Positions 33,545-55,176 of a stretch of DNA of 64,000 nt are shown here, in pieces. Position 1 is the stretch's first letter, and every line of letters starts with the position of its first letter. Location: the NCBI RefSeq assembly GCF_015557635.1, contig NZ_JADNOP010000003.1:1-64000 (forward strand), read 5' to 3'. Both the position numbers and the translations under genes were made by a program. Source of the DNA: Fusicatenibacter saccharivorans. GTDB lineage: Bacteria > Bacillota > Clostridia > Lachnospirales > Lachnospiraceae. Under the pieces are notes generated by a model. That model saw only the letters and a program-made list of their open reading frames with translations. It was not told the DNA's origin and did no database searches.

Positions 33545-35199
33545 GCTATCAGAAAAATGATGTACTGACGGTGAAAATTGAAGATATGGGACACGACGGA
33601 GAGGGTATAGGCAAATGCGAGGGCTATACCCTCTTTGTCAAGGACACCGTCATCGGCGATCTTGCCGAGGTAAAAGTGATCAAAGCAAAGAAAAATTACG
33701 GCTACGCGCGCCTGATGCGCCTGATCGAGCCGTCCGTACACCGCGTCGAGCCGGTCTGCCCGGTTGCACGTCCGTGCGGCGGATGCCAGTTGCAGATGCT
33801 CGACTATGCGGAGCAGCTTCGCTTTAAGGAGAAGAAAATCGCCGGAAATCTCCAGCGCATCGGCGGCATGACGGAGATCCCGATGGAGCCGATCGTGGGG
33901 ATGGAAAATCCGTTCCGCTATCGAAACAAAGCCCAGTTTCCGATCGGGCAGGATAGAAATGGAAAGCTGATTACGGGATTTTATGCGGGAAGAACGCATC
34001 AGATCATGGAAAACCGGAACTGTTATCTCGGCGTGGAGCAGAACGAGGAGATTCTGAACCGCATTCTTGCCTGGATGGAGGAGAACGGCGTTCCGGCATA
34101 CAACGAGGAGACCGGCAAAGGCCTGGTGCGCCATGTGCTGATCCGGTTTGGATTTATGACGAAAGAGATTATGGTCTGTCTCGTTGTGAACGGAAAGAAA
34201 CTGCCGGCCGAGGAGAAACTCATCAAATCGCTGACAGAATTCGAAGGCATGACAAGCATTACCCTAAGCGCAAACCGTGAGCGGACCAATGTGATCATGG
34301 GAAAAGAAATCCGCTGCCTGTGGGGACAGGGGTATATCACAGACTATATTGGAAACGTAAAATATCGGATCTCCCCGCTGTCCTTCTACCAGGTCAACCC
34401 GGCGCAGACGGAAAAGCTGTACGGTCTTGCCCTGGAATACGCAGGCCTCACCGGAAATGAGACGGTCTGGGATCTCTACTGCGGCATCGGAACGATTTCC
34501 CTGTTCCTCGCGCAGAAAGCCAAAAAAGTCTACGGCGTCGAAATCGTCCCGGAGGCAATCGCGGATGCGAAGAACAATGCGAAAATTAACGAGATCGAAA
34601 ACGCTGAATTTTTCGTTGGAAAATCGGAAGAGATTCTTCCGGCCTACTACGAACAGTACGCCAAAGACCATCCGGGCGAACACGCCCACGCGGACGTCAT
34701 CGTTGTCGATCCGCCGAGAAAAGGCTGCGAAGAAAACCTCCTCCACACCATGGCCAGCATGCAGCCGGACCGCATCGTGTATGTATCCTGCGATTCCGCA
34801 ACGCTGGCACGAGATGTGAAGGTGCTTGGGGAGCTGGGGTATGAAGTAAAGAAAGTCCGAGGGGTTGACCAATTCCCGATGACGTGCCATGTGGAGACAG
34901 TTGTTCTTTTGTCCCAACAAAAACCAGATGACACGATAGAGATCGACTTAGACCTGGATGAGCTGGATGCCACCAGTGCTGAGTTGAAAGCAACCTATCA
35001 GGAAATCAAAGATTATGTGCTGAAGGAATTTGGCTTGAAGGTTTCAAGTTTATATATTTCTCAGGTAAAACGCAAATGTGGAATTGAAGTGGGAGAAAAC
35101 TATAATCTTCCAAAATCAGAAAATGCAAGAGTTCCACAATGCCCGAAAGAGAAGGAAGAAGCTATCAAGGCTGCCCTGAAATATTATGCGATGATCTAA
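33541..35199 (+). CDS. rlmD: 23S rRNA (uracil-C5)-methyltransferase with element-encoded C-terminal tail
   Basis: 552 aa. It has an N-terminal TRAM domain, the iron-sulfur cysteines CPVARPCGGC, the SAM-binding site WDLYCGIGTISLFLAQ and the catalytic cysteine in VYVSCDSATLARD. A normal protein ends soon after the CHVETVVLL strand at about residue 455. Here about 95 more residues follow (from KPDDTIEIDLDLDEL to KYYAMI), encoded by lower-GC DNA that I take to be the left end of the mobile element. The element thus replaces the native 3' end in frame and probably keeps the enzyme active. It is cotranscribed with yhaM. Confidence 0.9.
   Translation: MSYQKNDVLTVKIEDMGHDGEGIGKCEGYTLFVKDTVIGDLAEVKVIKAKKNYGYARLMRLIEPSVHRVEPVCPVARPCGGCQLQMLDYAEQLRFKEKKIAGNLQRIGGMTEIPMEPIVGMENPFRYRNKAQFPIGQDRNGKLITGFYAGRTHQIMENRNCYLGVEQNEEILNRILAWMEENGVPAYNEETGKGLVRHVLIRFGFMTKEIMVCLVVNGKKLPAEEKLIKSLTEFEGMTSITLSANRERTNVIMGKEIRCLWGQGYITDYIGNVKYRISPLSFYQVNPAQTEKLYGLALEYAGLTGNETVWDLYCGIGTISLFLAQKAKKVYGVEIVPEAIADAKNNAKINEIENAEFFVGKSEEILPAYYEQYAKDHPGEHAHADVIVVDPPRKGCEENLLHTMASMQPDRIVYVSCDSATLARDVKVLGELGYEVKKVRGVDQFPMTCHVETVVLLSQQKPDDTIEIDLDLDELDATSAELKATYQEIKDYVLKEFGLKVSSLYISQVKRKCGIEVGENYNLPKSENARVPQCPKEKEEAIKAALKYYAMI
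34891..34901 (+). other. Putative attL core in rlmD
   Basis: GTGGAGACAGT encodes the V-E-T of CHVETVV. It matches 9 of 11 bases of the right core at 55069; GAGAC is the uninterrupted identical part. Confidence 0.55.
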
Positions 35200-35230
35200 G
35201 GACATCGCTGATTTCAAGGAGGAATAACAC

Positions 35231-35602
35231 ATGAAAAGCACATTTGAAAAAATGGGTGGAACCTACACACTTGGTGCAGACGGAATTTACTATCCGAATC
35301 TTATCAGTACAGATGAAGAACCGCATTATGGGAAATATGGAATGATGCGGAAAACATATCTGAAAGAGCATCGTCCGGCAATGTATTCACTGTATATGTT
35401 GGAAGACAGACTGACAGAACATCTGAATGCTGTAGACAACGAAGCACAGGAGAGGATGGGTATTCTGGTGCGTCAGATGATGGAGAAGCAAGGCGTTACG
35501 GAAGAATTGAAAGCTCGTGATCAGATGGAATGGGTCAGAGCGGTAAACAATATCCGGAATGCTGCAGAAGAGATTGTGTTAAGAGAATTAGTGTATATTT
35601 AA
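35231..35602 (+). CDS. TnpV-family transposon-encoded protein
   Basis: 123 aa. It matches the TnpV family found in Tn4451-like clostridial elements: GGTYTLGADGIYYPNL near the start, YGKYGMMRKTYLKEHRP, and a helical C-terminus (AEEIVLRELVYI). Its function is unknown. AAGGAGG lies 7 nt before the ATG. It is the first gene inside the element, 31 nt after the rlmD stop, and is followed by a terminator. Confidence 0.85.
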   Translation: MKSTFEKMGGTYTLGADGIYYPNLISTDEEPHYGKYGMMRKTYLKEHRPAMYSLYMLEDRLTEHLNAVDNEAQERMGILVRQMMEKQGVTEELKARDQMEWVRAVNNIRNAAEEIVLRELVYI

Positions 35603-35610
35603 GGTAATGG

Positions 35611-35685: not shown

Positions 35686-36498
35686 ATGAGAGATGATTTT
35701 TCACAAAGAACAAAGGATTTGTTAGCTAATAGAGTTGGATGGAAATGCAGTAATCCTAATTGTAGAAAAGCAACTCGTGGAGCAGGAACAGGAAAAGAGA
35801 ATATCATAAATATTGGAATTGCATCTCATATTACAGCAGCTTCTAAAGGCGGACCAAGGTATGATGAGAACATAACGTCTCAAGAGAGAGCATCAGCAGA
35901 AAATGGAATATGGTTATGCCAGTCGTGTTCAAAATTAATAGATTCAGATGTGAATAGATATACGATTGCTAAATTGAAAAAATGGAAGGAAATTTCAGAG
36001 CAAATGGCAGTTCTTGATTTGGAAGAAGCAACAGCAGAGGAGCAACATGAAGATAAAGAACTTATAAAGTTCTTTGTGCAATGTTTTGATCGTCCAGCAT
36101 TTCAGGATAGAATATATCAAGAAGGAAGAATGGAAGATTTTGATAGGGCTATTGAGGATACTATTATCGCTTTAAATACGGGAGTTCTTAGAACCAGAGA
36201 CGGAAGTATCTTAAAAAAAGCAGACGGAAAATCGTCTGTTGTAAATATAGAGTGGCGGGAGAAGCTTAATACAATTTGTGATATGTTGGTTGCACTAAGA
36301 AAACGATTAAAAATTGCAAAAGACACTGGAGCATATTCATTATATGGAGAAGATGATGTGATGTATTGTTTCTATGACAGAGATTTGGCAATATGGTTTG
36401 ATTCAACAAGGGAAGAAATATTAAAGATATTATCTTCAATTTGTGAAGAAATAGGAATACATGGATTAGGTTTTCCTAGGAAACGGTACGAGTGGTAA
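35686..36498 (+). CDS. HNH-type zinc-binding protein, possible defence cargo
   Basis: 270 aa. Residues 10-105 form an HNH-like treble-clef domain: CSNPNC, SHITAASKGGPRYDE with the core His, and WLCQSC. The C-terminal part (from about 115) is mostly helical, contains FFVQCFDRPAFQDRIY, and matches no family I can name. Proteins with this HNH front domain are often nucleases in anti-phage loci, so a DNA-cutting role is possible, but no partner gene is adjacent. The DNA is markedly AT-rich even for the element, suggesting separate acquisition. GGAGG precedes the ATG. Confidence 0.65.
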   Translation: MRDDFSQRTKDLLANRVGWKCSNPNCRKATRGAGTGKENIINIGIASHITAASKGGPRYDENITSQERASAENGIWLCQSCSKLIDSDVNRYTIAKLKKWKEISEQMAVLDLEEATAEEQHEDKELIKFFVQCFDRPAFQDRIYQEGRMEDFDRAIEDTIIALNTGVLRTRDGSILKKADGKSSVVNIEWREKLNTICDMLVALRKRLKIAKDTGAYSLYGEDDVMYCFYDRDLAIWFDSTREEILKILSSICEEIGIHGLGFPRKRYEW

Positions 36499-36691: not shown

Positions 36692-38401
36692 TTATAATTC
36701 CATATCATGTGACCTTTTCTTAGTTCGAGTAGGTTGATTTCTTCTAACTTCCTGTTTCCTCTGATATTCAAGTTCCCATGCACGATGGGAGAAGACATCA
36801 GGATCTTCCACATTGAGATAATCCACCTCATTGGTTGCAATATCACGACGGTGATAGTCATAATACTTACCAAAAGTACTTTTGAGCTGCTCGATCAGCT
36901 TATCCCGGAAATCAGAACGTATCTGGATTCTGGTGTCCAGCAATTCTGTATACTGTTCAGGTTCAGGACGAAATTTTTCTTCCCGGAAAGCGGCGGCGTC
37001 TTTTTCAAGCTGTTTTTGGAGCGAGATGTCCTGAGAATCCAGGATATCAAGATTGTTATTCATCTGGTCATATTTCTTGGATAGATTTGTCATATCTTTA
37101 TCGGTAGAGCATTGTGTCTGGAAGATTAGCTGCTCTTTCCTTGATTTCAGTTCTTCAATTTCTTCGGTAACAGTGGTAAGCTGCTGATTCAATTTTATAT
37201 GCTGAATGGGATTCAAAATACTGGTTTTCTCTTTTTTTACATTCAGCTCTTTCCGTTCTGTAACTTTAGCTTTGAGTTCCTTTTTAACGGTGTTGTATTT
37301 ATTCAGTATTGGATTAAAATGATTCATCCAGTCATGGATCACTTCTTTTTGCATCTCATTGTGGAGCAAATGATATTGTGTAAAAATCATGTGACTTCGG
37401 ATTGCTTCCAATGTTTCTGCAATTATCGGAACAGACTTTTCTACAGCTTCAGCCAGTTTTGCTACATTTGCTTTTAATTCTCGGAGCATTTTGTTATCCG
37501 CACGAATCTGTCGGTTGATTTCACAGCGGTCTGCTATTATGCCTTTCTTTTCCATATTCTGGGCAATGTAGCCTTCATGGATGGTTGGCTGTTCGGTGAT
37601 TCCCTGATCTGCAAAGCTGCGGTGATCAATGGTAGCATTTATCTGATTACGTGCAAGCATTTTATTTACGGCATCTGCCCAGTTTGCCCGCCAGATGCAA
37701 AGTTGTTCATCACTGTTCCATTGTTCGGAAATAGGATTCTGTCTGCCATATCGGCTGCTCTTGGGGTGTTTATCAATCCGTTCATATCCTTTTTCCTGTG
37801 CAACAGAGGAAGTCAGATATTCTTTCTTTTTCCCAATTTTATAGCGATATTGCTTTTCCCATCCCTGTTTCTGAGCAGTTTTAAATTCAGAAGCAGTAAA
37901 GCCTTTTTCTTGCCCGTCTTTTATACAGAGATATTCTTTTTCCGTTTTATACTGCCATGTTCCATTTTCATTTAGTGGTCGGACAGTAAGAAGAATGTGA
38001 GCATGGGGATTGTGACCATCTGTATCGTGAATGGCAAAATCAGCACACATCCCCATATTTACAAAGTTCTTTTTAATAAAATCTTGAAGAAGAGAAATAT
38101 TGCTGTCTTTATCCAACTCAACGGGGAGTGCGACAACAAATTCTCTTGCAAGTCGGCTGTCTTTGGTCTTTTCGTTTTCTTCCACAGCATTCCAGAGTTG
38201 TTCCCGGTCATTCCATTTCGATGGAGCCATTGGAGGAAGCATCACTTCCTGATAGATCAGACCCTGCTTTCTGGTATAGTCATGCTGAATGCCATCATAA
38301 TCATTGTACATGCGGCTACAGCTCATATAAGCAGAAGCAGCAACAGCAGACCGACCGGAACCACGGCTGACGACTTTGGCTTGCATATGATAAATTGCCA
38401 T
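36692..38401 (-). CDS. MobA/MobL-family relaxase (MOBQ)
   Basis: 569 aa. The N-terminal relaxase domain starts IYHMQAKVVSRGSGRSAVAASAY, typical of MobL, and has the metal-binding His triad in DTDGHNPHAHILLT. Residues 270-520 are a long coiled-coil region. It should nick oriT at 38513/38514 and lead the strand into the recipient. The start at 38401 follows AGGAGGTG; the frame runs upstream to 38482 through the oriT region without another start signal. The gene lies directly beside oriT, as in MOBQ plasmids. Confidence 0.92.
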   Translation of the reverse strand: MAIYHMQAKVVSRGSGRSAVAASAYMSCSRMYNDYDGIQHDYTRKQGLIYQEVMLPPMAPSKWNDREQLWNAVEENEKTKDSRLAREFVVALPVELDKDSNISLLQDFIKKNFVNMGMCADFAIHDTDGHNPHAHILLTVRPLNENGTWQYKTEKEYLCIKDGQEKGFTASEFKTAQKQGWEKQYRYKIGKKKEYLTSSVAQEKGYERIDKHPKSSRYGRQNPISEQWNSDEQLCIWRANWADAVNKMLARNQINATIDHRSFADQGITEQPTIHEGYIAQNMEKKGIIADRCEINRQIRADNKMLRELKANVAKLAEAVEKSVPIIAETLEAIRSHMIFTQYHLLHNEMQKEVIHDWMNHFNPILNKYNTVKKELKAKVTERKELNVKKEKTSILNPIQHIKLNQQLTTVTEEIEELKSRKEQLIFQTQCSTDKDMTNLSKKYDQMNNNLDILDSQDISLQKQLEKDAAAFREEKFRPEPEQYTELLDTRIQIRSDFRDKLIEQLKSTFGKYYDYHRRDIATNEVDYLNVEDPDVFSHRAWELEYQRKQEVRRNQPTRTKKRSHDMEL

Positions 38402-38417
38402 ATCTGGCACCTCCTTT
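38396..38417 (-). promoter_or_regulatory. Start-codon hairpin leader of the relaxase gene (copy 1)
   Basis: A 22-nt block containing TGCCA-TATC-TGGCA and the ribosome binding site overlaps the start codon. The identical block occurs at 38755-38776 before the DUF3847 gene. It could be an operator or an RNA hairpin for joint control. Confidence 0.5.
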
Positions 38418-38478
38418 CGATGTTGCCTGCAACAGCGGATAAAGCCCTCGGCAGAGCGCACGAGCCCCGAAGGGGATA

Positions 38479-38520
38479 CCACTGCCTGATTTATCAGGTG
38501 GTGAGTAAGTGCGCCCTTCG
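38479..38520 (+). other. oriT of RSF1010/R1162 type
   Basis: Inverted repeat CCACTGCCTGA/TCAGGTGGTG (38479-38489 with 38494-38503), followed at once by TAAGTGCGCCCT. This is the nic region of RSF1010-type (MOBQ) plasmids, which are cut between G and C (38513/38514 here). It lies 80 nt upstream of the relaxase start. Confidence 0.85.
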
Positions 38521-38930: not shown

Positions 38931-39788
38931 TCAATTCTGGTTCGGAGCATGATTGTTCAACAGGATTTTTTTCGCCTGTTTTAAATTAGCTGTTGCATTG
39001 TCCTGACGAATATTCCGGTTATTGATACGGACAGGAATACATCTCTCCAGAATACGGTCATAAATTCGTTTGTGTGCGATATCAGCGGCATTATTCAGCT
39101 CTGATAAAGTGAGATTGGTCGTTATGATCAGAGGCTTTTTACTGCGATAACGACTGTCGATCACATTGAATACCTGTTCCAGTGCAAAGTCAGAGTTCCG
39201 CTCAATTCCGAGATCATCAATAATCAGAAGACTGTAGCGGTTTAAGTTGTTGATGAACTGGTTTCTGTCTTCAAAATGCATTCCGGTAAGGGTATTCAGA
39301 ATCCGGGAAAAGTTGGTCATCAGTACAGGAACGCCTTTTTCCAGCAGGGCATTGGCAATGCAGCCTGCAAAAAAAGATTTTCCAGTACCGACATCACCCC
39401 AGATGAGAAGTCCGGAGGCGTTTGCTTTCATCTCTTCCCAGTTGCTTACATAATTGTGTGCCAGTTTTATTTCCGGATTGATGCCGTTATCCCTGGCAAA
39501 AGTGTAGTCATAGAGTGCTTTGTCCTGTAAGCCGCTGGTTTTAAGATGCTCTATTTCCATTTGTTTTTCATGAAGTTTTCTCTGGGCTTCTTCCTGCTCA
39601 AAGATTTTCTGCTGGCATTTACAGCGAATAGAAGGAATAAGAACTTTTCCCTGTAATTCATGCCGGCATTGTCTTGGCGTATTGCATTTGGAACAGTAGA
39701 TCAGGTGGTCTGTTTCGTTAAAATATTCATCAGGCTGAAGCTCTCTGCTTGGTGTTATAGCGGTTGCTTTTTCTGTAAATCTTGTCAT
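38931..39788 (-). CDS. DnaC/IstB-like ATP-binding helicase loader
   Basis: 285 aa. An N-terminal cysteine-rich zinc ribbon (CSKCNTPRQC, then CKC) is followed by an AAA+ ATPase with Walker A GDVGTGKSFF and Walker B SLLIIDDLG. The fold is that of DnaC/DnaI helicase loaders on clostridial plasmids and integrative elements. It probably loads the replicative helicase when the element replicates. It overlaps the RepA-like gene by 4 nt. Confidence 0.88.
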   Translation of the reverse strand: MTRFTEKATAITPSRELQPDEYFNETDHLIYCSKCNTPRQCRHELQGKVLIPSIRCKCQQKIFEQEEAQRKLHEKQMEIEHLKTSGLQDKALYDYTFARDNGINPEIKLAHNYVSNWEEMKANASGLLIWGDVGTGKSFFAGCIANALLEKGVPVLMTNFSRILNTLTGMHFEDRNQFINNLNRYSLLIIDDLGIERNSDFALEQVFNVIDSRYRSKKPLIITTNLTLSELNNAADIAHKRIYDRILERCIPVRINNRNIRQDNATANLKQAKKILLNNHAPNQN

Positions 39789-40501
39789 AGTGTTTCGTAT
39801 TCCTCACTTTCGTAATTTCTTTGCCGGGAAGCAGGATGATCCTGTCTTGCCCAACTGATGATGGTAGCTGCATGGTTCTGATATTGCTTTCCGGTAGAAG
39901 CCATATAACCGGATAAGCGTTCAATATAATCCTTCCAGTCAGGGATTGTCTGCCGGATATCTTCAAGCTCTTTTTCTGACAGAAAAACATTTTGAAATTT
40001 TCCATAGGGTGAGAGTGGCTCCTTACTCCCTCTTTTTTCTAAATTGTTCTTTTTTATCTCTTTCTTATTACCAGACAGTTTTCTGTCTGTATCAGGAAAA
40101 GAATCCTGTCTGTCAATAGGACAGTTTTCTGTCTGTCTTAGGGAAAGAAATCTGTCTGTATAGTGGATGGTTTCTTTTGGGAGTTTTACATAAATCCGAT
40201 TGGGCTGTCCGGGTCCCTGCCGTTTTCGGAAGATAAGCTCCTGTTTTTCCAGTACTGCCAGAGCAGTTTTAACCGTCATCTGGCTTTTATGGAGAACGTC
40301 TGCCAGTGCTTCAATTGTAAAGTAAATGAACACATGACCATTGATATCTGACCAGCCCTCATTTTTCTGGGAAAGCCTTGCCCGGTCGAGCAGGATAATA
40401 TAAAGCATTTTGGCAGTTTCGTTTATTTCCATGTCCAGAAGAAAACGGGGAAACATCATATAAGATGGCAGGTTGGTGTCTGCTGTCAGAAAGTCCGTCA
40501 T
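39785..40501 (-). CDS. RepA N-terminal-domain replication initiator
   Basis: 238 aa. The first 120 residues match the RepA_N replication initiator domain with its winged helix (YMMFPRFLLDMEINETAKMLYIILLDRA, then LADVLHKSQMTVKTALAVLE). The rest is polar and ends in a helical domain (FLSEKELEDIRQTIPDWKDYIERLSGYM). RepA_N proteins start replication of plasmids and of some integrative elements. GGAGGTG precedes the start, and the gene is coupled to the DnaC-like gene. Confidence 0.82.
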   Translation of the reverse strand: MTDFLTADTNLPSYMMFPRFLLDMEINETAKMLYIILLDRARLSQKNEGWSDINGHVFIYFTIEALADVLHKSQMTVKTALAVLEKQELIFRKRQGPGQPNRIYVKLPKETIHYTDRFLSLRQTENCPIDRQDSFPDTDRKLSGNKKEIKKNNLEKRGSKEPLSPYGKFQNVFLSEKELEDIRQTIPDWKDYIERLSGYMASTGKQYQNHAATIISWARQDHPASRQRNYESEEYETL

Positions 40502-40906: not shown

Positions 40907-41824
40907 TTATCCCCTCCTTTTCAGGCTCATATAAGCCAGAGATTCGTAACCTTTGGCGGTGGCGCAGATGTCATCAATGATGGTGACTCGTGATTTGTCA
41001 TACGTTCCGAAGTTACGGATCAGGCATCCACCACCGCCAACCACATACAGGCGCATCAGGTCAGGATTGTATTCATATTTGCGGAGCGTGGAAAAAAGTT
41101 CTGCCACATACTGTCTGGCAATAGAACTGATACAATCCAGATATGGTGCTGAAATGTCAGCGGTTCCAAACCGCAGAATCTGTTCTACTGTGGATTCTTC
41201 AATTTTCACTCCGAATTTGTCCAGAACAGCGTTCTTTGCGGCAATCATGCATTGGTTTACACCAAGTTTTTCTGTCCAGCATCGGCTCTCCTGAGCTTTC
41301 TTATTGTTGATATACAGAATGTTCATGGTTCCGTTTCCGATATCTGCAAGGAGATTGGTTCCCTTGAAATTTCCGAGTTGGTTTACGATAGCCGGATACC
41401 CTTGTGGGTAAAGACTGCATCCCGCAAAGCGGAGATGATACTCTTTGCCGTTAAAACGGTAATGGACTTCTGGATTCTGGAGCAGATAGGAACGAAAAGC
41501 TTCTCTTTGATTTCTGATCCATGTCAGAGGAAGTCCGGCAGCCAGATGAACATCTGCTTCACGGATGGAAAAGATATTCATTTCCCTTGCAATAGCCATT
41601 AGTGTCAGAAGATAATATTCTTCGTCCATAGCTTTATCCGGGATAAATTCTTTGTGTCCTTCGCCAATCCGGTAGTAAATGCCGTTATATTCCAGAATAT
41701 TTCCGGTGAAGATTGGTTCTGTTTCATAGGCTTTGATTCCGGTTGGCGTGACGGTGTTTGCTGTTTTCATATTGCCGTAGCCATGATCTACAGCAATGAT
41801 TTTTGTGTTTCTGAGTTCTCGCAT
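40907..41824 (-). CDS. ParM/StbA-like actin-type segregation ATPase
   Basis: 305 aa. It shows the actin-like fold: phosphate-1 motif IIAVDHGYGNMK, second phosphate loop LLADIGNGTMN and adenosine motif VVGGGGCLI. ParM filaments push replicated plasmid copies apart. The start at 41824 follows CGGAGGT; a longer frame to 42004 is unsupported. The downstream ParR-like gene completes the pair. The parC centromere is probably in the 200 nt upstream, where GTACC-N5-GGTAC lies near 41868. Confidence 0.82.
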   Translation of the reverse strand: MRELRNTKIIAVDHGYGNMKTANTVTPTGIKAYETEPIFTGNILEYNGIYYRIGEGHKEFIPDKAMDEEYYLLTLMAIAREMNIFSIREADVHLAAGLPLTWIRNQREAFRSYLLQNPEVHYRFNGKEYHLRFAGCSLYPQGYPAIVNQLGNFKGTNLLADIGNGTMNILYINNKKAQESRCWTEKLGVNQCMIAAKNAVLDKFGVKIEESTVEQILRFGTADISAPYLDCISSIARQYVAELFSTLRKYEYNPDLMRLYVVGGGGCLIRNFGTYDKSRVTIIDDICATAKGYESLAYMSLKRRG

Positions 41825-42022: not shown

Positions 42023-42044
42023 ATGGATACTGGAGGTGGTTTGG

Positions 42045-42719
42045 ATGAAATACAAGATTTTAGTTGTCGATGATGATAAAGAATTGGTGAAAATGCTTTG
42101 TAGTTATTTTAATATGAAACAATATGAAACCATTACGGCTACAGACGGAATGGAAGCATTAAATAAAATAAAAATGAAACCGGATATTATTTTGTTGGAT
42201 ATCAATATGCCACGCATGGATGGGATTGAAGTATGTCGTCTGATACGCAGTAAAGTGTTATGCCCGATTTTGTTTCTAACAGCAAGAGTTGATGAAGATG
42301 ATAAAATTAATGGGTTGCTTTCGGGTGGGGATGACTATATTACGAAACCATTTAGTCTTCGGGAGTTGGAAGCAAGGATTGTCACAAACATAAAGAGAGA
42401 AGAAAGGCATCAACAAAAAACGGAATACCGTTTCATGGATGAAATGCTGATTGATTATTCTGAAAAAATAGTAGCTATAGCCGGACACAGGATGGAGTTC
42501 ACAAAAATTGAATATCAGATTATTGAATTCTTATCCATGCATCCAGGGCAGGTGTTTGATAAAGAACGTATATATGCACAAGTCTGTGGATATGATGCGG
42601 AAGGGGACAGTAGAACGATAACGGAATTAGTACGGCGTATAAGGAAAAAAATAGCGGATTATTCAGAAAAAGAATACATAGAAACTGTATGGGGGATTGG
42701 ATACCGATGGAAAAAATAA
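42045..42719 (+). CDS. OmpR-family response regulator (VanR-like)
   Basis: 224 aa. The receiver domain has phosphoacceptor in IILLDINMPRMDG and Lys in ITKPFSLREL. The winged-helix output domain runs from MEFTKIEYQIIEFL to VWGIGYRW. The start at 42045 follows GGAGGTGG. It overlaps the kinase gene by 13 nt. It is first in a five-gene operon with the kinase and an ABC-2 exporter, an arrangement used for sensing and removing peptide antibiotics. Confidence 0.92.
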   Translation: MKYKILVVDDDKELVKMLCSYFNMKQYETITATDGMEALNKIKMKPDIILLDINMPRMDGIEVCRLIRSKVLCPILFLTARVDEDDKINGLLSGGDDYITKPFSLRELEARIVTNIKREERHQQKTEYRFMDEMLIDYSEKIVAIAGHRMEFTKIEYQIIEFLSMHPGQVFDKERIYAQVCGYDAEGDSRTITELVRRIRKKIADYSEKEYIETVWGIGYRWKK

Positions 42720-45725: not shown

Positions 45726-45728
45726 ATT

Positions 45729-46601
45729 ATGAGTATTAGAATAAATGATTTAACAGTTAGATTTAAAAATGGTGTAGTTGCAGTAAATAAGGCATCTCTT
45801 GAAATACCTAAGGGAATTTACGGACTTTTGGGTGAGAATGGTGCCGGAAAAACCACTTTGATGAGGGTTCTTACAACTGTTTTAAAACAAACGGAAGGAA
45901 TGGTTTCCCTTGATGGAATTCTGTATAACGAGGGAAATTATGAGAAAATACAGAAAAAGATTGGTTATCTTCCACAGGAAATCGACTTATATCCGAATCT
46001 TACGGTGAAAGAATGTCTTGTATATATGGGGGGACTGTCAGGAGTAGCCAGAAATGACCTCGAACAAAGAATTACCTATTATCTGGAAAAGACTTCTCTT
46101 ACAGAGCATCAGAATAAAAAAATGCGGCAATTATCTGGTGGTATGAAGAGACGTGTCGGACTCATACAGGCACTTCTTAATAATCCGGATTTTTTGATTA
46201 TTGATGAACCTACCACCGGGTTAGATCCGGAAGAAAGAATCAGGATCCGCAATCTTTTGGTTGATTTTTCAAAGGATAGAACTGTGCTGTTTTCCACTCA
46301 TGTAGTAGAAGATTTAGCAGCAACCTGTACACAGCTTGCCATTATGAAAAAGGGAAGTTTTTTATATTCTGGAAGCGTGAGTGGGTTGCTGGAAAATGCA
46401 AAGGGCTGTGTTTGGAATTGTACGGTACAAAATGCAGAAGAAGCCCGTTTGTTAGAAGCCAATTATTCTATACCATCTAAGCAGTATGTAGAAAATGGAA
46501 TTCATATGAAAGTATTAAGCAAAGGAAAGCCAAATGAGAATTGTGTCCTGGATAATGATATCACTTTGGAAGATGCATATATTTATTTGACGAATAGTTG
46601 A
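45729..46601 (+). CDS. ABC exporter ATP-binding protein
   Basis: 290 aa. It has Walker A LLGENGAGKTTLMR, Q-loop YLPQEIDLYPNLT, signature LSGGMKRRVGL, Walker B FLIIDEPTTGLDPE and switch His in FSTHVVED. It belongs to the CcmA/DrrA-like class that pairs with ABC-2 permeases. It is the last gene of the cargo operon and follows the second permease after 3 nt. Confidence 0.92.
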   Translation: MSIRINDLTVRFKNGVVAVNKASLEIPKGIYGLLGENGAGKTTLMRVLTTVLKQTEGMVSLDGILYNEGNYEKIQKKIGYLPQEIDLYPNLTVKECLVYMGGLSGVARNDLEQRITYYLEKTSLTEHQNKKMRQLSGGMKRRVGLIQALLNNPDFLIIDEPTTGLDPEERIRIRNLLVDFSKDRTVLFSTHVVEDLAATCTQLAIMKKGSFLYSGSVSGLLENAKGCVWNCTVQNAEEARLLEANYSIPSKQYVENGIHMKVLSKGKPNENCVLDNDITLEDAYIYLTNS

Positions 46602-46638: not shown

Positions 46639-48951
46639 TTATTTTGTTAAAAGACCGGATAGATTTTTTCCAATGCAAAATCCAATCTGTGGATATAACT
46701 CCTGAATTTCCTGATATTTTGCTTCAATCATTTCTGGTTCATCAGCCCAGATCTTTTCATATATTTTGAAAGCTCTTTTAAAATGTGTTTTGGCTTGCGG
46801 AAGATTGGCAGTCATCAGATAAATGGTTCCAAGGGTTTCCTGTACTTTGGCATAATCCAGACAGTCATCGGAATGGTATTCCTTGATGATGCCGGATAAT
46901 TTTTGCAATTCAGAGATGCCTCTTTCGGGTTCCTGCTGTTCTGTCAGGAACATTGCATAATTGGCAATCTGAGGTATGCTGTCATTTATATGAAGCAGGT
47001 TAAATTGGTCAAGCAGTGAGATACTTTTTTCCATGTGTTCTCTTGCAAGATCGGGATGACCGTTCATGCGGTAAAGTCCACCGAGATTGGCATGAAGGTT
47101 GGAAACAAGGCGAGCATTGTCAGCAGTGATATTTTCTATCTGGGCAAGTGCATCCTTTTCCAGTTTTATTGCTTTTTCAGGTTTGGTTTCAAGGGTTGCC
47201 TGAAAATCCAGTAATAACGCCCGGTCAGAGTTGGTGCCAATGCTTTTTGTCTTTAACAGCACCTTCAGTTCCTGAATGATTCCCTTCATACCTTTGTGAT
47301 AGTTATAGTTATCCATGTATGGAAATGCATTTTCCAGAAAAAGCAGATACTTTGGCATATCATCTTTTTCAATTAATTCTATGATATTTCCGATTGTTTG
47401 AAATAGCTTTTTATAATAATCTACTTCCATTCCATGCATTAAACATATGTGCTGTAAAGAATCCAGAAACGTGTGACAACTACTTACAGATGGTTTTGTC
47501 TCTGAAAGGGTGATTTCCTGAATCATCGGATGCAGAGAGATAGTGCGACGTGTTGTTGTCTGAACGAAACCAGTCTCAATTAAATCGTTGATTTCATTTA
47601 GTGTGGACAGTTCCAGCCATTTGGCAAATATACGGGCAGAAATACCGGTGGAAGGAAGAAAGCACATATTACACATGATATCCTGCTGTTTAAGAGATAA
47701 AGTGTATAAAGAAAACAGCGTATGGATATGACTATAATAGGTGGCTTTGCTGCTTTGTCCATCTTTGATTATTTTAATTTTATCTTCGTTATGGAAAGAT
47801 GCTTTTTCCACCTGAAGTCTTGTTAATAACTGGTCTGGAGTCGAGATTCCATTTTCCAGAAGTTTTGCTGCCAGTTCCACGGCAAAAGTATGAGAGTGAA
47901 CAGTTTCGATGATCTTTTCAACTGTTGCACGGTATGCGTCTGCCTCTGAATAAAATGCTGATGCCAGCTGTAAGAGAGCGTTCATATCCTCTATTTCTTT
48001 TAATGGCAGAGTACAGTATTCATCCAGTTTGCTTCTGGTTGTAAACAAAATCTGGCAGCGATATTTTAATACTACTGACAGAAAGCTGTCCTGTGTGGCA
48101 GTGACATTAAAATTATCTATGATAAGCAGAGTATCAGATTTCAGGGAACGCAGGAAACGGTTATGTCTTTGAAACCGTTCCTGTTCAGTGCTTTCCGGAA
48201 GATCGTCAATAAAATCCATGTCAGTAATATCCTGATGAAGATTGCCGGTATATTCTACATAAAGGATATTGGTGTATTGCTTTATGTACCGCTTTGCGTA
48301 GGCTTTGGCAAGTTCACTTTTTCCAATTCCGGCGATTCCGCAAAGAAAAACATGACGGTTTTCCTCAAGCATGGTATATAATTCTTCCAGTTCTTTATCT
48401 CTTCCGATAAAATGACGGCATGGTTTCGGAACCTCACTGTCCATAATATAATCCAGCACAATGGGGGATAAAGCGCCTCCGGCGAGCAGCTTCTGATTTT
48501 TGGTATTACGTTTGATGAATTGGCGTTCCATGCCAAAAGAAATCAGTTTTGCAAGAAACAGCAGTCTTGAACTGGCTGGTTTATATAAGGGAGTCAGATT
48601 TTTCTTTTTCGCATCTGAGATGCTGTCATCCTGAATGAATAAAGTGTAAATATCTTGTATAACCATATTACAGTCAGACATCAGTGGAAGAAGATTCTGG
48701 TGGATGGTATGGGCTAATTTTTCCTGATTGGATGACTTGGAATAGTAAGCGGATATTTTAGGACTGATTTTAGCCTGACCAGTCATCCAGCGGCAAACCA
48801 GACCGTTGTCCATTGAAAAATCCTGATTTGTCGGATCATCCATAAAATCTTCAAATAATTCGTATAAAAAATCAGGCTGACTCATTTGATTACTTTCGCT
48901 GATATGATTTTTTAAGCAAGTGCTAATAGAAGAAAAATCGCATCGATTCAA
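46639..48951 (-). CDS. STAND-class NTPase with TPR repeats
   Basis: 770 aa. A helical N-terminal domain (1-175) of unknown type is followed by an NB-ARC-like NTPase (about 185-330) with Walker A FLCGIAGIGKSELAK, Walker B TLLIIDNF and the sensor ILFTTRS. A winged-helix region follows, then tetratricopeptide repeats (about 590-750, e.g. LHANLGGLYRMNGHPDLAREHMEKS). Such proteins act as signal-switched regulators or as immune sensors. No effector domain is recognisable, so regulation of the element or of its cargo is as likely as defence. AAAGGGGA precedes the start. Confidence 0.78.
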   Translation of the reverse strand: MNRCDFSSISTCLKNHISESNQMSQPDFLYELFEDFMDDPTNQDFSMDNGLVCRWMTGQAKISPKISAYYSKSSNQEKLAHTIHQNLLPLMSDCNMVIQDIYTLFIQDDSISDAKKKNLTPLYKPASSRLLFLAKLISFGMERQFIKRNTKNQKLLAGGALSPIVLDYIMDSEVPKPCRHFIGRDKELEELYTMLEENRHVFLCGIAGIGKSELAKAYAKRYIKQYTNILYVEYTGNLHQDITDMDFIDDLPESTEQERFQRHNRFLRSLKSDTLLIIDNFNVTATQDSFLSVVLKYRCQILFTTRSKLDEYCTLPLKEIEDMNALLQLASAFYSEADAYRATVEKIIETVHSHTFAVELAAKLLENGISTPDQLLTRLQVEKASFHNEDKIKIIKDGQSSKATYYSHIHTLFSLYTLSLKQQDIMCNMCFLPSTGISARIFAKWLELSTLNEINDLIETGFVQTTTRRTISLHPMIQEITLSETKPSVSSCHTFLDSLQHICLMHGMEVDYYKKLFQTIGNIIELIEKDDMPKYLLFLENAFPYMDNYNYHKGMKGIIQELKVLLKTKSIGTNSDRALLLDFQATLETKPEKAIKLEKDALAQIENITADNARLVSNLHANLGGLYRMNGHPDLAREHMEKSISLLDQFNLLHINDSIPQIANYAMFLTEQQEPERGISELQKLSGIIKEYHSDDCLDYAKVQETLGTIYLMTANLPQAKTHFKRAFKIYEKIWADEPEMIEAKYQEIQELYPQIGFCIGKNLSGLLTK

Positions 48952-49270: not shown

Positions 49271-49317
49271 AATACAAAATGTAAATCAGACTGTCGCTTT
49301 TTTCATGCATTTTTAAA

Positions 49318-50104: not shown

Positions 50105-50459
50105 ACTAACACCTCCTCTTTTTTGGCTTTTTTGTGTATTTATAGTATATGCAATGTGTGATAAAAACACAATATCGAAAACAAAAATAATTTCTAAATA
50201 ATTTTCAAGCCGGACATTTATTAGACGCTTCCGGTAAGCGAACAATATTTTCGAGCCAATCATTTATAAGTCGCCAATGGTGGGCGGGCAATATTTTGAT
50301 AACAGAAATGCTCTGTATCTAACTTAATTATACGATTGGCGAAGAAATGCGTCAATACGGAAAATAAGTATTGAAAATAGTTGGAACAAGTACTAAAATT
50401 AAGTTGGGACATTGAATGGAAGTTATGTTACGAGATAATAAGAATTGTAGGTGGAAGGT

Positions 50460-53432
50460 TTGAACATAGAAGCATATGATGCTGATTCATTGAGAAAAAT
50501 GGTTAGGTTGCTTGAATATGAGAACAAGATATTAAAAGATAAATTGAAGAAAGCAGGCATTTCATATGAAGAGGTGAATCCTTTTGAAGAAAAAATAGAA
50601 AGTGCAGAAGAATATGACCTGGATCAAGGGAGTCGTATTGTAAATCCGCCATATATTACAGAGAAAATGGCAATACGTTTCTTTTCGATGTTTTGGGGAA
50701 GAGAAGATGTATATGCCAGACGGGGAAAGAACGGGGGTTATTTTCCACAATGTGCAAATCGTTGGAATGACCGGCTTTGTCCTAAACAACGTAAAGAGAA
50801 GGTATTTTGTGATGAATGTGAAAATACCAAATGGATAAGTCTGGATGTAAAAAAAATAATTGCTCATTTGTTAGGCACAAAAGAAGATGGATCAGATGTA
50901 ATAGGTGTATATCCTTTACTGCCAAATGGAACATGCAGATTTATTGTATTTGATTTTGATAATCATGAAAAAGGAGCAGAGGTTACGGACTTTGCAAATA
51001 CGGATAATGAGTGGCATAAAGAAGTGGATGCGCTTAGAAAAATGTGTGAGCTTAATGGTATCAGACCTTTAGTTGAGAGATCTCGATCTGGAAAAGGTGC
51101 CCATGTATGGATTTTCTTTAAAAAGGCAATATCTGCGGCAACAGCAAGGAATTTTGGATTTCTCCTGTTAGACAAGGGTTCAACTTCCATCAATCTGAAA
51201 TCTTTTCATTATTATGATAGAATGTATCCTTCGCAGGATGTGGCAAGCAGCATAGGTAATTTGATTGCATTGCCATTACAGGGGCAGGCACTTAAAAATG
51301 GAAATAGTGCTTTTGTAGATGAAAATTGGAATGCATATCCTGATCAATGGGATGCTCTTTTCAATAAAACAAAAAAGCTGGGAATAGAAGATGTTGAACA
51401 ATGCATGGCAAAATGGCAGGGAGAATTAGCAGAAGTCAGAGGAACGCTTACTAATATTGAGAAGAATGTCAGACCGAAACCATGGAAGAAGAAATGTGAG
51501 TTTTGTAAGTCAGATGTTGTGGGCAAGCTTCATATGGTATTGGGCAATGGAGTTTATATTGATACTCTGAATCTTATGCCAAGAATACAAAATCAGGTCC
51601 GTAGTTTGGCGGCATTTGATAATCCGGAATTTTACAAAAATAAAAGGCTGGGATATTCTAATTATTATAATTTCAGTACTGTATATTTAGGTAAGGATAT
51701 AGATGGATATATACAGATTCCGAGAGGACTGCGGGAAAATATTATACAGGAATGTGAAAAAGCAGGCATTTCAGTTGATGTTTCAGATCAAAGAGAAACA
51801 GGACAACCTATCAGAGTATCTTTTAAAGGTGATTTGCGAATGCAACAGGAATTAGCAGCAGAAAAATTATTATCACATTCAGATGGGGTTTTGAGTGCGG
51901 CAACTGCATTTGGAAAGACTGTAGTATGTAGTTACCTTATTGCAGAGCGAAAAGTAAATACGCTCATTTTGCTGCAAAATAAAGATTTGCTTAATCAGTG
52001 GGTTGATGAATTGAATCATTTCTTAGAGATAAGAGAAGAACCACCGGAATATGAAACAAAAACAGGAAGAAAGAAAAAAAGAAATAGTGTGATAGGCGTT
52101 TTGCACGGAAATAAAAATACATTGACAGGGATTATAGATGTTGCAATGGTTGGTTCAATGTACAGCAGAGGAAAATTTAATGAACGGATTAATTCTTACG
52201 GAATGGTAATTATGGATGAATGTCATCACGCAGCTTCTAACACATCTATGGAATTATTGCAGAAAATAAATGCAAAATACGTATATGGTGTTTCTGCTAC
52301 ACCTAAACGTGGTGACAGTCTTGATCGGATCATCTATATGCTGTTAGGACCTTTGAGACATAGATTTACTGCATTGGAGAGGGCTAAGGAACAGGGGATT
52401 GGACATTATTTTGTCCCAAGATACACAAGAGTAGTTGATACTGCAGAAAGCAAGGATAATATTAATAAAGCATATAATTTGATTAGTACCAGTAAGGTGC
52501 GCAATGAAATGATCATAGATGATGTTATAACTTGTGTTGCAAGAAAACAAACTCCTGTAATTTTGACAAGATTTAAGGAACATGCAAAATTTTTACATGA
52601 TGCCTTAAAGAAAAAAGCAGATCATGTATTCCTTCTGTATGGGGATAATTCGGATAAGGAAAATGCTGAAATAAGAGTAAAATTAAAGCAGATACCTGAA
52701 AATGAATCGCTTATTTTGGTGGCAACTGGTCAGAAAATAGGAGAAGGGTTTGATTTCCCAAGACTGGATGTATTAATGCTTGCAGCACCTGTATCTTTTG
52801 AAGGACGCCTGGAACAGTATGTAGGTAGATTAAACAGAGATTATGTCGGAAAAGAAGCCGTTTATGTGTATGATTATATCGATTCGCATGTGCGTTATTT
52901 TGATAAAATGTATGCAAAAAGATTGAGAACATATAGGAAAATGGGATTTTCAATCTGGACGCAAGAGTTGCAACCTAAACAAATAATAAATGCAATATTT
53001 GATTCTGTAAATTATACCGAAAAATTCGAGCAAGATATTGTAGAGTCAGAAAAAATGGTGGTAATTTCCAGTCCGGATATCAGACAGGATAAAATTGACA
53101 GATTTTTATTACTAGTCAAGAAGAGACAGGAAGTAGGGGTAAAGGTCACAGTTATTACAACAGATCCGGAAGATATTACTTACGGAAAGTCAGATGTATG
53201 TTATGAATTAATCAGAGCAATGCAATTGGTAGGAATAAATGTGATAACAAGAACAGAAGTAGAAGAATGTTTTGCCGTTATTGATGATGAAATAGTATGG
53301 CATGGTGGGATGAATCTACTTGGAAAAGCTGATGTCTGGGATAACTTAATGCGTATCAGAAATTCACAAGTTGCAACGGAATTGTTGGAAATTGCTTTGG
53401 GATGTTCTGAGGAGAGGAGGAAAAGTGAATAA
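50460..53432 (+). CDS. TOTE-type primase-helicase-PLD protein
   Basis: About 990 aa. There is a coiled N-terminus, then a cysteine-rich stretch (about 90-125), and an archaeo-eukaryotic primase domain with the DxD motif FIVFDFDNH (about 160) and ERSRSGKGAHVWIFF. An SF2 helicase follows with Walker A TAFGKTVV (about 482), Walker B MDECHH (about 585) and motif VI-like YVGRLNRD. The C-terminus is a phospholipase D-like module (FAVIDDEIVWHGGMNLLG) whose usual HxK is EEC. This order is that of TOTE conflict-system proteins. The start is uncertain: TTG 50460 or GTG 50451 behind GTAGGTGG. It overlaps the recombinase gene by 8 nt. Confidence 0.8.
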   Translation: MNIEAYDADSLRKMVRLLEYENKILKDKLKKAGISYEEVNPFEEKIESAEEYDLDQGSRIVNPPYITEKMAIRFFSMFWGREDVYARRGKNGGYFPQCANRWNDRLCPKQRKEKVFCDECENTKWISLDVKKIIAHLLGTKEDGSDVIGVYPLLPNGTCRFIVFDFDNHEKGAEVTDFANTDNEWHKEVDALRKMCELNGIRPLVERSRSGKGAHVWIFFKKAISAATARNFGFLLLDKGSTSINLKSFHYYDRMYPSQDVASSIGNLIALPLQGQALKNGNSAFVDENWNAYPDQWDALFNKTKKLGIEDVEQCMAKWQGELAEVRGTLTNIEKNVRPKPWKKKCEFCKSDVVGKLHMVLGNGVYIDTLNLMPRIQNQVRSLAAFDNPEFYKNKRLGYSNYYNFSTVYLGKDIDGYIQIPRGLRENIIQECEKAGISVDVSDQRETGQPIRVSFKGDLRMQQELAAEKLLSHSDGVLSAATAFGKTVVCSYLIAERKVNTLILLQNKDLLNQWVDELNHFLEIREEPPEYETKTGRKKKRNSVIGVLHGNKNTLTGIIDVAMVGSMYSRGKFNERINSYGMVIMDECHHAASNTSMELLQKINAKYVYGVSATPKRGDSLDRIIYMLLGPLRHRFTALERAKEQGIGHYFVPRYTRVVDTAESKDNINKAYNLISTSKVRNEMIIDDVITCVARKQTPVILTRFKEHAKFLHDALKKKADHVFLLYGDNSDKENAEIRVKLKQIPENESLILVATGQKIGEGFDFPRLDVLMLAAPVSFEGRLEQYVGRLNRDYVGKEAVYVYDYIDSHVRYFDKMYAKRLRTYRKMGFSIWTQELQPKQIINAIFDSVNYTEKFEQDIVESEKMVVISSPDIRQDKIDRFLLLVKKRQEVGVKVTVITTDPEDITYGKSDVCYELIRAMQLVGINVITRTEVEECFAVIDDEIVWHGGMNLLGKADVWDNLMRIRNSQVATELLEIALGCSEERRKSE

Positions 53433-55176
53433 AAAGATAAAATGTGATATCTATACCAGAGTATCCACAACCATGCAGGTAGATGGCTACAGTCTGGATG
53501 CTCAGAAAGAAAAACTCGAGAGATATGCGGAATTTCAGAACATGGAAATCGTAAATGAGTATTCCGATGAAGGTAAGTCTGGAAAAAGCGTAGAGGGCAG
53601 ACCGGAATTTCAGAGAATGTTGGATAATATTGAGAATGGAACAGATGAGGTGCAGTTTGTACTGGTGTTCAAGCTTTCCAGATTTGGTCGTAATGCGGCA
53701 GATGTTTTAAATTCTTTGCAGAGGATGCAGGATTTTGGAGTGAATCTGATCTGTGTAGAAGATGGAATTGACAGCTCAAAAGATAGTGGAAAGCTGATGA
53801 TTTCTGTTCTGTCTGCGGTGGCAGAGATCGAACGAGAGAATATCCTTGTTCAGACAATGGAAGGACGTAAGCAGAAAGTCAGGGAAGGAAAATGGAATGG
53901 TGGATTTGCTCCGTATGGTTATGAATTAGTAAATGGAGAATTGCAGATTGCAGAGGACGAAGCAGAGATTATTCGTCTGATCTATGACAAATTTATTCAT
54001 ACCAATATGGGAATCTCTGCGATTGCTGCATGGCTGAACCAGCATGGATACAAAAAGAAAAAACGACAGAATAATACACTGGACGCATTTGCCGCTTCAT
54101 TTATAAAGGGCGTTCTGGATAATCCGGTATACTGTGGAAAGCTGGCTTATGGACGAAGGAAAAACGAGAAAGTTTCTGGTACAAGAAATGAATACCGCAT
54201 TGTAAAGCAGGAAAATTATATGCTGCACGATGGTATCCATGAAGGGATTGTTTCAGAAACAGACTGGGAGCTGGCACATCAAAAACGGGAAAAAACAGGT
54301 GTGAAATATGAAAAGACACATAGTCTCGATCATGAGCATATTTTATCTGGAATATTGAGATGCCCGTTATGTGGAAGTGGTATGTATGGAAACGTGAACC
54401 GAAAGAAAAAGAAAGACGGAACCTTATATAAAGATTATTTCTATTATGCCTGTAAACATCGTCGTCTGGTAGACGGTCATAAATGTGGATATCGTAAACA
54501 ATGGAGTGAGGAGAAGATTAACAATGCAGTGGAAGAAGTTATTCGGAAGCTGGTGAAGAATCCTAAATTTGAAGAAGCAATTCTGAATAAAATTGGTTCA
54601 AGAATAGATACAGAAGAAATAGAAAAAGAGATTGACGGATTGGAAAAGCAGCACAGGCAGCTGACCGGAGCAAAAGCAAGACTTGGACAGCAGATGGACA
54701 GTCTGGATATTATGGATAAATTTTATGAGAAGAAATATCAGGATATGGAGACAAGGTTATACCGTCTGTACGATGAGATCGAAGGCGTGGAGAACAGTAT
54801 AGAGGAAGTAAAGAATCGCCTGTTGAATATTCGGCAACAGAAAATATCAGAAGAAAACGTCTATCAATTTCTTTTATATTTTGATAAACTATATGATAAG
54901 TTCACCGATCTGGAGAAGAAAGAATTTCTTAATAGCTTTGTAGAACAGGTGGACATTTACGAGCAGGAGCAGCCAGATGGCAGATTCCTGAAGCACATAA
55001 AGTTCCGTTTTCCGGTGTATTTTGGAGACAGGGAAATACAGGAACTTTGTTGGGACAACGAAAGTACCGTTGAGACTGTGTGCCTTTTGGGCAAACGAAA
55101 ACCAGATGCCAAGGTAAAAATAGGCATTGATATGGATGATTATTACCGTATCAGGGAGAATGCTGAAAGCAAATAA
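53425..55176 (+). CDS. Large serine recombinase (TnpX-like integrase)
   Basis: 583 aa. The resolvase catalytic domain carries Ser14 (IYTRVST) and the conserved GYSLDAQ and FKLSRFGRNAADVL motifs. A recombinase domain follows, then a zinc ribbon (CPLCGSGMYG ... CGYRK) and a long coiled coil (about 400-490). The start is GTG 53425 behind GGAGGAAAA. The last 36 residues (STVETVCLLGKRKPD...) resemble the tail of RlmD after its V-E-T, and I infer that they lie beyond the attachment core. The gene therefore reads across the element border into chromosomal DNA and would have a different tail in the excised circle. Confidence 0.9.
   Translation: MNKKIKCDIYTRVSTTMQVDGYSLDAQKEKLERYAEFQNMEIVNEYSDEGKSGKSVEGRPEFQRMLDNIENGTDEVQFVLVFKLSRFGRNAADVLNSLQRMQDFGVNLICVEDGIDSSKDSGKLMISVLSAVAEIERENILVQTMEGRKQKVREGKWNGGFAPYGYELVNGELQIAEDEAEIIRLIYDKFIHTNMGISAIAAWLNQHGYKKKKRQNNTLDAFAASFIKGVLDNPVYCGKLAYGRRKNEKVSGTRNEYRIVKQENYMLHDGIHEGIVSETDWELAHQKREKTGVKYEKTHSLDHEHILSGILRCPLCGSGMYGNVNRKKKKDGTLYKDYFYYACKHRRLVDGHKCGYRKQWSEEKINNAVEEVIRKLVKNPKFEEAILNKIGSRIDTEEIEKEIDGLEKQHRQLTGAKARLGQQMDSLDIMDKFYEKKYQDMETRLYRLYDEIEGVENSIEEVKNRLLNIRQQKISEENVYQFLLYFDKLYDKFTDLEKKEFLNSFVEQVDIYEQEQPDGRFLKHIKFRFPVYFGDREIQELCWDNESTVETVCLLGKRKPDAKVKIGIDMDDYYRIRENAESK
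55069..55079 (+). other. Putative attR core in the recombinase gene
   Basis: GTTGAGACTGT encodes the V-E-T of STVETV, in the same codon phase as the attL core. DNA after it is presumed to be the original 3' end of rlmD. Confidence 0.55.

Follow-up and report, generated by a model that had tools for sequence, protein, structure and literature searches.

What does a mobile element do to the enzyme whose gene it enters, and to its own recombinase? The window analysed here, which comprises positions 1 to 64,000 of NZ_JADNOP010000003.1 (Fusicatenibacter saccharivorans, GCF_015557635.1), raises this question: its rlmD gene is interrupted by a 20.2-kb mobile element bounded by two copies of GTnGAGACnGT (at 34891 and 55069). 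A preliminary description had proposed that the insertion swaps the C-terminal tails of RlmD and the recombinase, with possible consequences for the direction of recombination. We report that the swapped C-termini are confirmed, and that the interpretation as a whole is partly supported.

Insertion site and junctions

The pattern GTNGAGACNGT has only two exact sites in the window, 34891-34901 and 55069-55079, both on the + strand; 0.22 sites are expected by chance, and two or more appeared in 1 of 100 shuffles. The two core copies form the start of an ungapped direct repeat of 71 nt (70% identical, spacing 20,178). As had been described, both copies are read as V-E-T in one frame, that of RlmD and that of the element recombinase. 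The features of the two junctions are as follows:

33541..35199, + strand, rlmD (23S rRNA uracil-C5 methyltransferase) with element-derived C-terminal tail, 552 aa (TIGR00479, E 4.2e-138, residues 17-452)
34891..34901, + strand, attL core GTGGAGACAGT; codon 34894-34896 is E452 of RlmD
34900..35199, + strand, element-borne tail comprising a short RlmD-like strand (VVLLS), a linker and a helical domain, without Pfam or NCBIfam match
55069..55079, + strand, attR core GTTGAGACTGT within the recombinase gene
55078..55176, + strand, native-type rlmD 3' end, at present the recombinase C-terminus

VET corresponds to residues 451-453 of RlmD, with 99 residues past T, and to residues 548-550 of the recombinase (582 aa when counted from 53428; translation probably begins one codon earlier, with the GTG at 53425), with 32 residues past T. 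The lengths given earlier, 95 and 36, depend on where counting starts, and the swap itself is real. The Glu of the core, E452 of RlmD, aligns with the general base E443 of Streptococcus pneumoniae RlmCD.

It had also been predicted that an uninterrupted rlmD would end as the window recombinase now does. Such ends are present in two of the seven same-genus genomes (G005 and G002), where rlmD ends in VETVCLLSNRKSKPDTHVDLTLDMEDYYRIKD..; its alignment to the end of the window recombinase scores 82, a value that none of 5000 shuffles reached (highest 51), in agreement with the recombinase bearing a native-type rlmD end. In the other five the end is short (G004 and G006), tailed (the window genome and G001) or a truncated tail (G003). 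The short G006 RlmD terminates in VETVVLMSRADKK, and the C43 paralog in the window's own genome terminates in ..HVETVVLMSKKEK. Synteny of the right flank failed as an empty-site test, since a search at E <= 1e-60 recovered the flanking solute-binding protein from 3 of 61 genomes, including its own, while the six further genomes of the genus all lacked a match.

Gene content of the element

The remaining predicted genes of the element, together with the recombinase gene, are:

35231..35602, + strand, TnpV (PF14198, E 1.5e-39)
35686..36498, + strand, protein with an HNH/defence-effector-like N-terminal half (PADLOC PDC-M68A, 5.6e-25, and several endonuclease effector models)
36692..38482, - strand, MobA/MobL relaxase, start provisional (PF03389, E 2.7e-89)
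38931..39788, - strand, IstB/DnaC-like ATPase (PF01695)
39785..40501, - strand, RepA_N replication initiator (PF06970)
40907..41824, - strand, actin-like (ParM-type) protein (PF17989)
42042..43885, + strand, response regulator and histidine kinase
43990..46601, + strand, ABC transporter: permease, second membrane-type protein without Pfam match, ATPase
46639..48951, - strand, STAND NTPase with TPR repeats, possible defence protein
50451..53432, + strand, TOTE-type primase-helicase (PF22548, E 4.7e-75)
53425..55176, + strand, large serine recombinase, start inferred (PF00239, PF07508, PF13408)

Recombinase and relaxase are both encoded by the element (Pfam), as in integrative mobilizable elements, and a Pfam scan of 17 element proteins, which covered all but some small ORFs, found no type IV secretion family. 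By gene content we classify it as a putative integrative mobilizable element, and its excision and mobilization are predicted. TnpV, a protein associated with Tn4451, adjoins the left end, a feature shared with Tn4451-type elements.

Exchange of 3' ends among recombinase relatives

Borders inside rlmD and the recombinase gene, as first proposed, are supported by mapping DNA crossovers among relatives. The relatives of the window recombinase (n=3, 80-96% identical over the 300 nt preceding the core) and of the second recombinase of the same genome (n=6, 92-100%) match up to the core and have unrelated ends beyond it. Reciprocally, 30 distinct rows, counting the window, have the tail in common from GAGAC to the right but differ in their left flanks, and near-identical tails carry unrelated left flanks; one of these rows, L126, lacks the core. 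Recombinases fused to the tail, which the exchange predicts, were found in other records: the body of L214 matches the window recombinase at 99% identity, yet it is fused to a tail.

An assembly or alignment artefact, or a chance repeat, is scarcely credible as an explanation. The core is short, and shuffling occasionally yields two matches, but the junction recurs in many independent assemblies, including G348, a genome in one contig that contains a tandem array, and the lineage comparisons rule out a chance repeat. As judged by these comparisons, integration swaps the 3' ends in frame, such that RlmD keeps a VETVxLLS end and acquires the domain and the recombinase receives the old rlmD end.

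The frame is kept across the exchange in 38 of 39 recombinase clusters (35 by motif, 3 by eye), and in the 39th the contig stops at the core. Three clusters of recombinases whose ends read the core in a different frame (CGDG) constitute a separate clade. In a further clade the domain is permanent, being present in 22/22 clusters. The tail frequency in the first locus set means little because these loci were fetched by the tail, and a scan with the recombinase body only was therefore run on the best 80 of 154 relatives. The domain was present in 20/20 of the permanent-clade recombinases obtained by body alone; the two counts are not independent, since the clusterings overlap and the contigs of the scan overlap the tail-fetched set. 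The inputs of the scan included L320 (from G321), which headed no reported cluster, and one of its recombinases (L373) has no E-T reading of the core. When the family was searched for the permanent-tail body, scoring three candidates per genome, matches were found in 3 of 397 genomes (open frames of 646-670 aa), the tails being read in genomes other than G321. The tree places the in-frame recombinases in more than one clade (2 changes) and the permanent ones in a single clade (100/100), whose join to the phage in-frame group is weak (81/42); the tree as a whole carries a long-branch warning.

One circular contig carries a recombinase-tail fusion and no rlmD match; its recombinase is approximately 45% identical. 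The exact circle-junction patterns of the window element and of the second element of the genome were found neither in viral contigs nor in the family genomes (0/397 each). Where elements stand in tandem, an integrated recombinase runs into the tail of the next element, and hence is not always tail-less; tail presence is no strict signal of the integration state.

The tail domain

The segment that changes places is a conserved domain without a name, and purifying selection acts on it, with median dN/dS of 0.04-0.13 within context classes; comparisons of permanent with other tails gave higher medians, 0.33-0.51, from few pairs. It has no match in Pfam, and NCBIfam VapD was rejected as a sub-threshold match (E 0.016). 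PHROG 27283, a family without assigned function, matches 39 of 57 tails, and no match was obtained among viral models. By sequence the best matches to solved structures had E 0.67 and 0.012, and the domain alone gave no fold match to these at E <= 0.001. The match at E 0.012 is a weak one to eS24.

Resolvase, Recombinase and zinc-ribbon domains are present in the window protein and in 34/34 members of recombinase set A3. The AlphaFold model of L214 (pTM 0.38) has a body that folds like serine integrases of solved structure (E 3.7e-23 to 9y66 and 2.4e-18 to phiC31 9rah by Foldseek), as in the large serine integrases of the SPbeta/phiC31 type, whereas no solved structure matched the tail domain at the threshold given above. 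The core (VET 550-552) lies in a stretch with pLDDT below 50 and the domain helices in blocks of 69-92; the tail modelled alone has pLDDT 65.

One explanation, which we consider rather unlikely, is that the tail only repairs the target, giving RlmD a working end, and that read-through in the circle is an incidental result of the position of attP, with no effect. The tails do open with an RlmD-like VETVxLLS strand, the insertion rebuilds the catalytic Glu codon, and in 360 pairs of RlmD-fused tails a median dN/dS of 0.085 indicates purifying selection. The ends of G006 and C43 given above, however, show that few residues past VET suffice for RlmD, so repair leaves approximately 85 further conserved residues unexplained; moreover, in recombinases that retain the domain rather than hand it over, the VETV strand is missing from it.

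That the tail acts in trans on the recombinase, as an RlmD-tail or a short ORF and e.g. as a directionality factor, appears improbable. Tails fused to neither protein make up 19 (plus 2 cut at 5') of 87 tail places in genome loci and 14 (plus 1) of 87 in viral loci, and engineered fusions of integrase and directionality factor alter direction (PMC5737554). Against this, the first in-frame ATG of the window tail is only at its third-last codon, the unfused ORFs could represent remnants or junctions between tandem elements, and no directionality factor was identified in this analysis.

Recombinase bodies vary together with their own tails, which are stored kilobases away at the other end of the element (r 0.865, 0/5000 permutations, n=15), compared with r 0.17 for body and adjacent fused tail (99/5000 permutations, n=21). 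Linkage in the circle alone would also yield covariation of body and own tail.

Discussion

Our preferred reading, held with slightly more belief than doubt, is that insertion strips the recombinase of its own domain and parks it on RlmD, with a possible effect on direction. The large serine recombinase of the integrative mobilizable element would target the rlmD codon of the catalytic glutamate, and attP would lie inside the recombinase gene, at the linker between the body and the C-terminal helical domain. The circle would encode the complete enzyme (body, linker and domain); integration would cut the domain off, placing it on RlmD, and excision would restore the recombinase, leaving an empty rlmD that in this strain would end in ..VCLLGKRKPDAKVKIGIDMDDYYRIRENAESK. 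Complete and shortened enzymes may differ in activity, most simply such that the complete form integrates and the shortened form is less active or biased, and integration would therefore limit itself. An effect of the tail on direction is plausible from these comparisons, and since the swapped piece resembles a genuine recombinase domain a possible on/off role is testable. A specific evolved function of the short end is unlikely because the host gene sets this end in the integrated state. More tentatively, and with considerable doubt on our part, the domain might be a direction module that insertion removes and stores in frame on an rRNA methyltransferase, so that the chromosome would register the state of the element, reversibly and covalently, in two proteins at once, with related phages offsetting the loss through a second recombinase with a permanent copy.

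The C-terminal swap itself is not new. According to Ambroset 2016 (PMC4701971), streptococcal ICEs and IMEs swap the 3' ends of rumA and of a serine integrase gene on integration, which alters the reading frame of both proteins; the rumA-targeting single serine integrase is Ser_4 (PMC5357655). On that account the window element shares the target (rumA is rlmD), the serine integrase, the att site inside the integrase gene and the 3'-end swap, but the window and 38 of the 39 related clusters keep the frame (the 39th is cut by a contig end), and in the mobile form its recombinase would acquire a domain. One phage recombinase (L073) suggests that the streptococcal enzymes would lie in the CGDG clade; a Streptococcus suis phage record (L072) has RlmD fused to a homologous tail. 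The older case is phage Mx8 of Myxococcus, with attP within a tyrosine integrase gene (PMC4701971) and a new C-terminus and altered properties on integration (PMC4701971, PMC6070905); the passages seen of its account mention no conserved domain delivered to a host enzyme, such as the window element delivers to RlmD. In mycobacteriophage BPs, a case of integration-dependent immunity, attP is inside a phage gene and integration removes 33 residues and alters protein stability (PMC4557955); BPs alters its repressor, whereas the window element alters recombinase and RlmD. By record comparison, an att site in coding sequence and two C-termini are shared with the Mx8 and BPs kind. New are the in-frame exchange, the conserved exchanged domain, the permanent-domain clade and the covariation of body and own tail.

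Direction control of serine integrases usually requires a separate factor (PMC5737554). Here it may be built into the geometry of insertion, the reaction editing its own enzyme, and the natural complete, shortened and permanent forms are a ready set for probing the effect of C-terminal additions on direction. Finally, the tail is common in the family, with matches at E <= 1e-10 in 154 of 397 genomes, and therefore many of its proteins that are annotated as RlmD, or that count as 'long' recombinases, are chimeras made by insertion.

The element and its target site

GTNGAGACNGT is present in two copies in the window, at 34891, within rlmD codons 451-454, and at 55069, close to the 3' end of the gene for a large serine recombinase; the two copies of this core head a direct repeat of 71 nt (70% identity, spacing 20,178 bp). 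As the preliminary description had it, the codon phase is the same at both junctions, the core being read V-E-T in RlmD and in the recombinase. The TIGR00479 match of RlmD stops at residue 452, and the 99 residues after the T of VET (the tail) matched no Pfam or NCBIfam family. The core copies enclose genes for TnpV, a MobA/MobL relaxase, replication and partition, a two-component system with ABC transporter, a STAND NTPase, a TOTE primase-helicase and the large serine recombinase. Since no type IV secretion family was found among the 17 element proteins scanned, we refer to an integrative mobilizable element. Further features are:

35686, HNH-like protein (possible defence cargo)
40074-40165, two adjoining 46-nt direct repeats, 80% identical, within the RepA_N gene
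46639-53432, STAND NTPase with TPR and TOTE primase-helicase (possible defence cargo)
49318-50215, - strand, two small overlapping genes
55929-57860, solute-binding protein right of the element, with an 88% identical copy on another contig (G000:C52:110527-112386)

The two small genes, without match in Pfam or PADLOC, are perhaps, as a guess, a toxin-antitoxin pair.

The core GAG (34894-34896, E452) aligns, by PDB sequence comparison, with the glutamate replaced by Q in entry 5zq0, S. pneumoniae RlmCD. The E443Q mutant of RlmCD is described in PMC5614603, where a role as general base is proposed for the equivalent residues; hence the core covers the catalytic glutamate codon, which both swap products rebuild.

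Exchange of protein ends

Comparisons to the left and right of the core show that the proposed reciprocal exchange of RlmD and recombinase ends is real. Over the 300 nt upstream of the core, the window recombinase is matched by loci L214 (96%), L146 (91%) and L108 (80%), and a further recombinase encoded in the window's own genome (contig C48; itself L008, 100%) by L287 (100%), L109 (96%), L110 (95%), L124 (93%), L280 (93%) and L070 (92%). Relatives of both diverge 3' of GTYGARRCNGT, continuing as short rlmD-like ends in L287 and L124 and as at least four kinds of tail in others. From GAGAC rightwards the tail is 88-100% common to 30 distinct rows (window included; in one, L126, the core is missing at the expected position), and the left flanks differ.

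The genome has three RlmD paralogs (window, C48 and C43). That on C43 ends ..HVETVVLMSKKEK, and that on C48 is occupied by a different element, whose recombinase is followed by tail debris. In G000:C48:11450-32129 (L007, L008) 11.5 kb separate another tail from this different recombinase (56% identical); past the debris comes a further unit, which contains two-component and ABC genes and has a broken tail/TnpV fragment at its end.

The end of the window rlmD paralog was compared across seven same-genus genomes, including that of the window: it resembles the recombinase end in two (G005, G002), is short in two (G004, G006), has a truncated tail in one (G003) and carries a tail in two (G000, the window genome, and G001). 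The window recombinase end aligned better with the rlmD end of G005 (score 82, reached by 0/5000 shuffles) than with its own tail (score 53), and is therefore rlmD-like. The earlier suggestion that the recombinase reads into what looks like the old rlmD end holds to this extent, but rlmD ends vary within the genus.

Recombinase ORFs of at least 480 aa (159) were grouped into 75 clusters at 90%. Among the 39 clusters at least 40% related to the window enzyme (17 with a terminal tail, 22 without) the V-E-T frame was kept in 35 by motif and in three by eye; the last, L229, ends at a contig edge. The core was read in another frame, CGDG, in 3 of 14 other clusters (24-100% to queries of another type), resembling the frame change reported for streptococcal elements. 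L130, L074 and L094 have a different recombinase type, with the core read through as ..CGDG... In L373, a window-type enzyme from a body-only scan, the core was not recognisable.

Distribution of the tail

Tail places in genome-contig loci (80) were RlmD-fused in 57 cases (+3 cut at the 5' end), recombinase-fused in 5 (+1) and neither in 19 (+2); in viral-contig loci (79) the numbers were 1 (+3), 67 (+1) and 14 (+1), respectively, many of the viral ones being of the permanent form described below. Natural chains occur: in the single-contig genome G348 an rlmD-tail precedes two recombinases, the first continuing in frame into a second tail kind and the next fused to a third kind. L108-L109 (G348:C1:460501-512000) are tandem elements in one rlmD, each recombinase in frame with the tail of the next element.

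Both ends were compared in 46 viral records (37 as whole records, nine by their ends). A terminal repeat, of 107 nt, was present in one, L273, which has a recombinase-tail ORF of ~673 aa and no RlmD match; among these records, a circle was thus seen directly only in this distant relative (45%). In L303 (IMG/VR 3300021400_004437), a circular element of 10.3 kb, a recombinase-tail fusion occurs together with genes for a replication-like protein and for two methyltransferase-like proteins that resemble each other.

The tail as a probable recombinase domain

The permanent form is the main reason for regarding the tail as a recombinase domain and not a mere RlmD patch. It comprises 22 clusters whose C-terminus is this domain, though V-E-T is absent; they align end to end with the swappable recombinases and form one clade (support 100/100). 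The first loci had been fetched by tail, hence viral contigs were searched again with the recombinase body alone; the domain was present in 20/20 permanent-kind clusters, a set overlapping with the 22. Many permanent-form recombinases lie directly upstream of a swappable one on phage-like contigs. In L117, L121, L171, L181, L215, L223, L228, L230 and L264 two serine recombinases are adjacent, of which the first has a permanent tail domain and the second stops at the swap core.

Where a contig also held a tail upstream of a recombinase, the nearest such tail, which belongs to the same element and lies 2-22 kb off, was paired with that recombinase (17 pairs, minus two near-duplicates; the L178 tail string, trimmed differently, was retained). 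Distances of body and own far-end tail gave r 0.865 (n=15; 0/5000 permutations as high), versus 0.17 for the physically fused tail (n=21 distinct; reached in 99/5000); the evolutionary partner of the recombinase is thus the far-end piece stored on rlmD. Linkage in the circle alone would be enough to explain this covariation, which does not prove function.

Median domain dN/dS values are listed below; those of permanent versus other kinds were higher, 0.33-0.51.

Median dN/dS of the tail domain (pairs)
RlmD-RlmD: 0.085 (360)
RlmD-recombinase: 0.068 (70)
recombinase-recombinase: 0.038 (8)
permanent-permanent: 0.119 (13)
other-other: 0.129 (95)

AlphaFold gave a weak model for the tail alone (pLDDT 65) and pLDDT 79.8, pTM 0.38 for the L214 fusion (652 aa, 34 sequences), in which VET (550-552) falls within a low-confidence stretch (pLDDT <50 at 547-561, 568-571 and 574-581) followed by helices at 586-597, 603-612 and 636-648. 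The body matches solved serine integrases; for the tail domain nothing known was matched among solved structures and viral models.

Discussion

That rlmD flanks prophages of Gram-positive bacteria is reported in PMC12785378. Streptococcal ICEs integrated in rumA (rlmD) swap 3' parts of rumA and integrase, with changes in length, sequence and frame, and the same source, citing Mx8, raises the possibility of a functional difference between the two forms of the integrase (PMC4701971); the Mx8 integrase is altered by its change (PMC6070905). The swap itself is thus of a known kind, and the in-frame domain exchange is a novel form of it; in one open-access library no paper was recognised, judged by title or start of abstract, that describes the tail domain or either form of the recombinase, in-frame or permanent. 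A finely tuned two-state switch is made less likely by the tandem arrays and by short ends that the host gene determines. The comparisons support well that integration amputates a domain of the recombinase, and that this amputation may control the direction of recombination is a hypothetical, testable idea.
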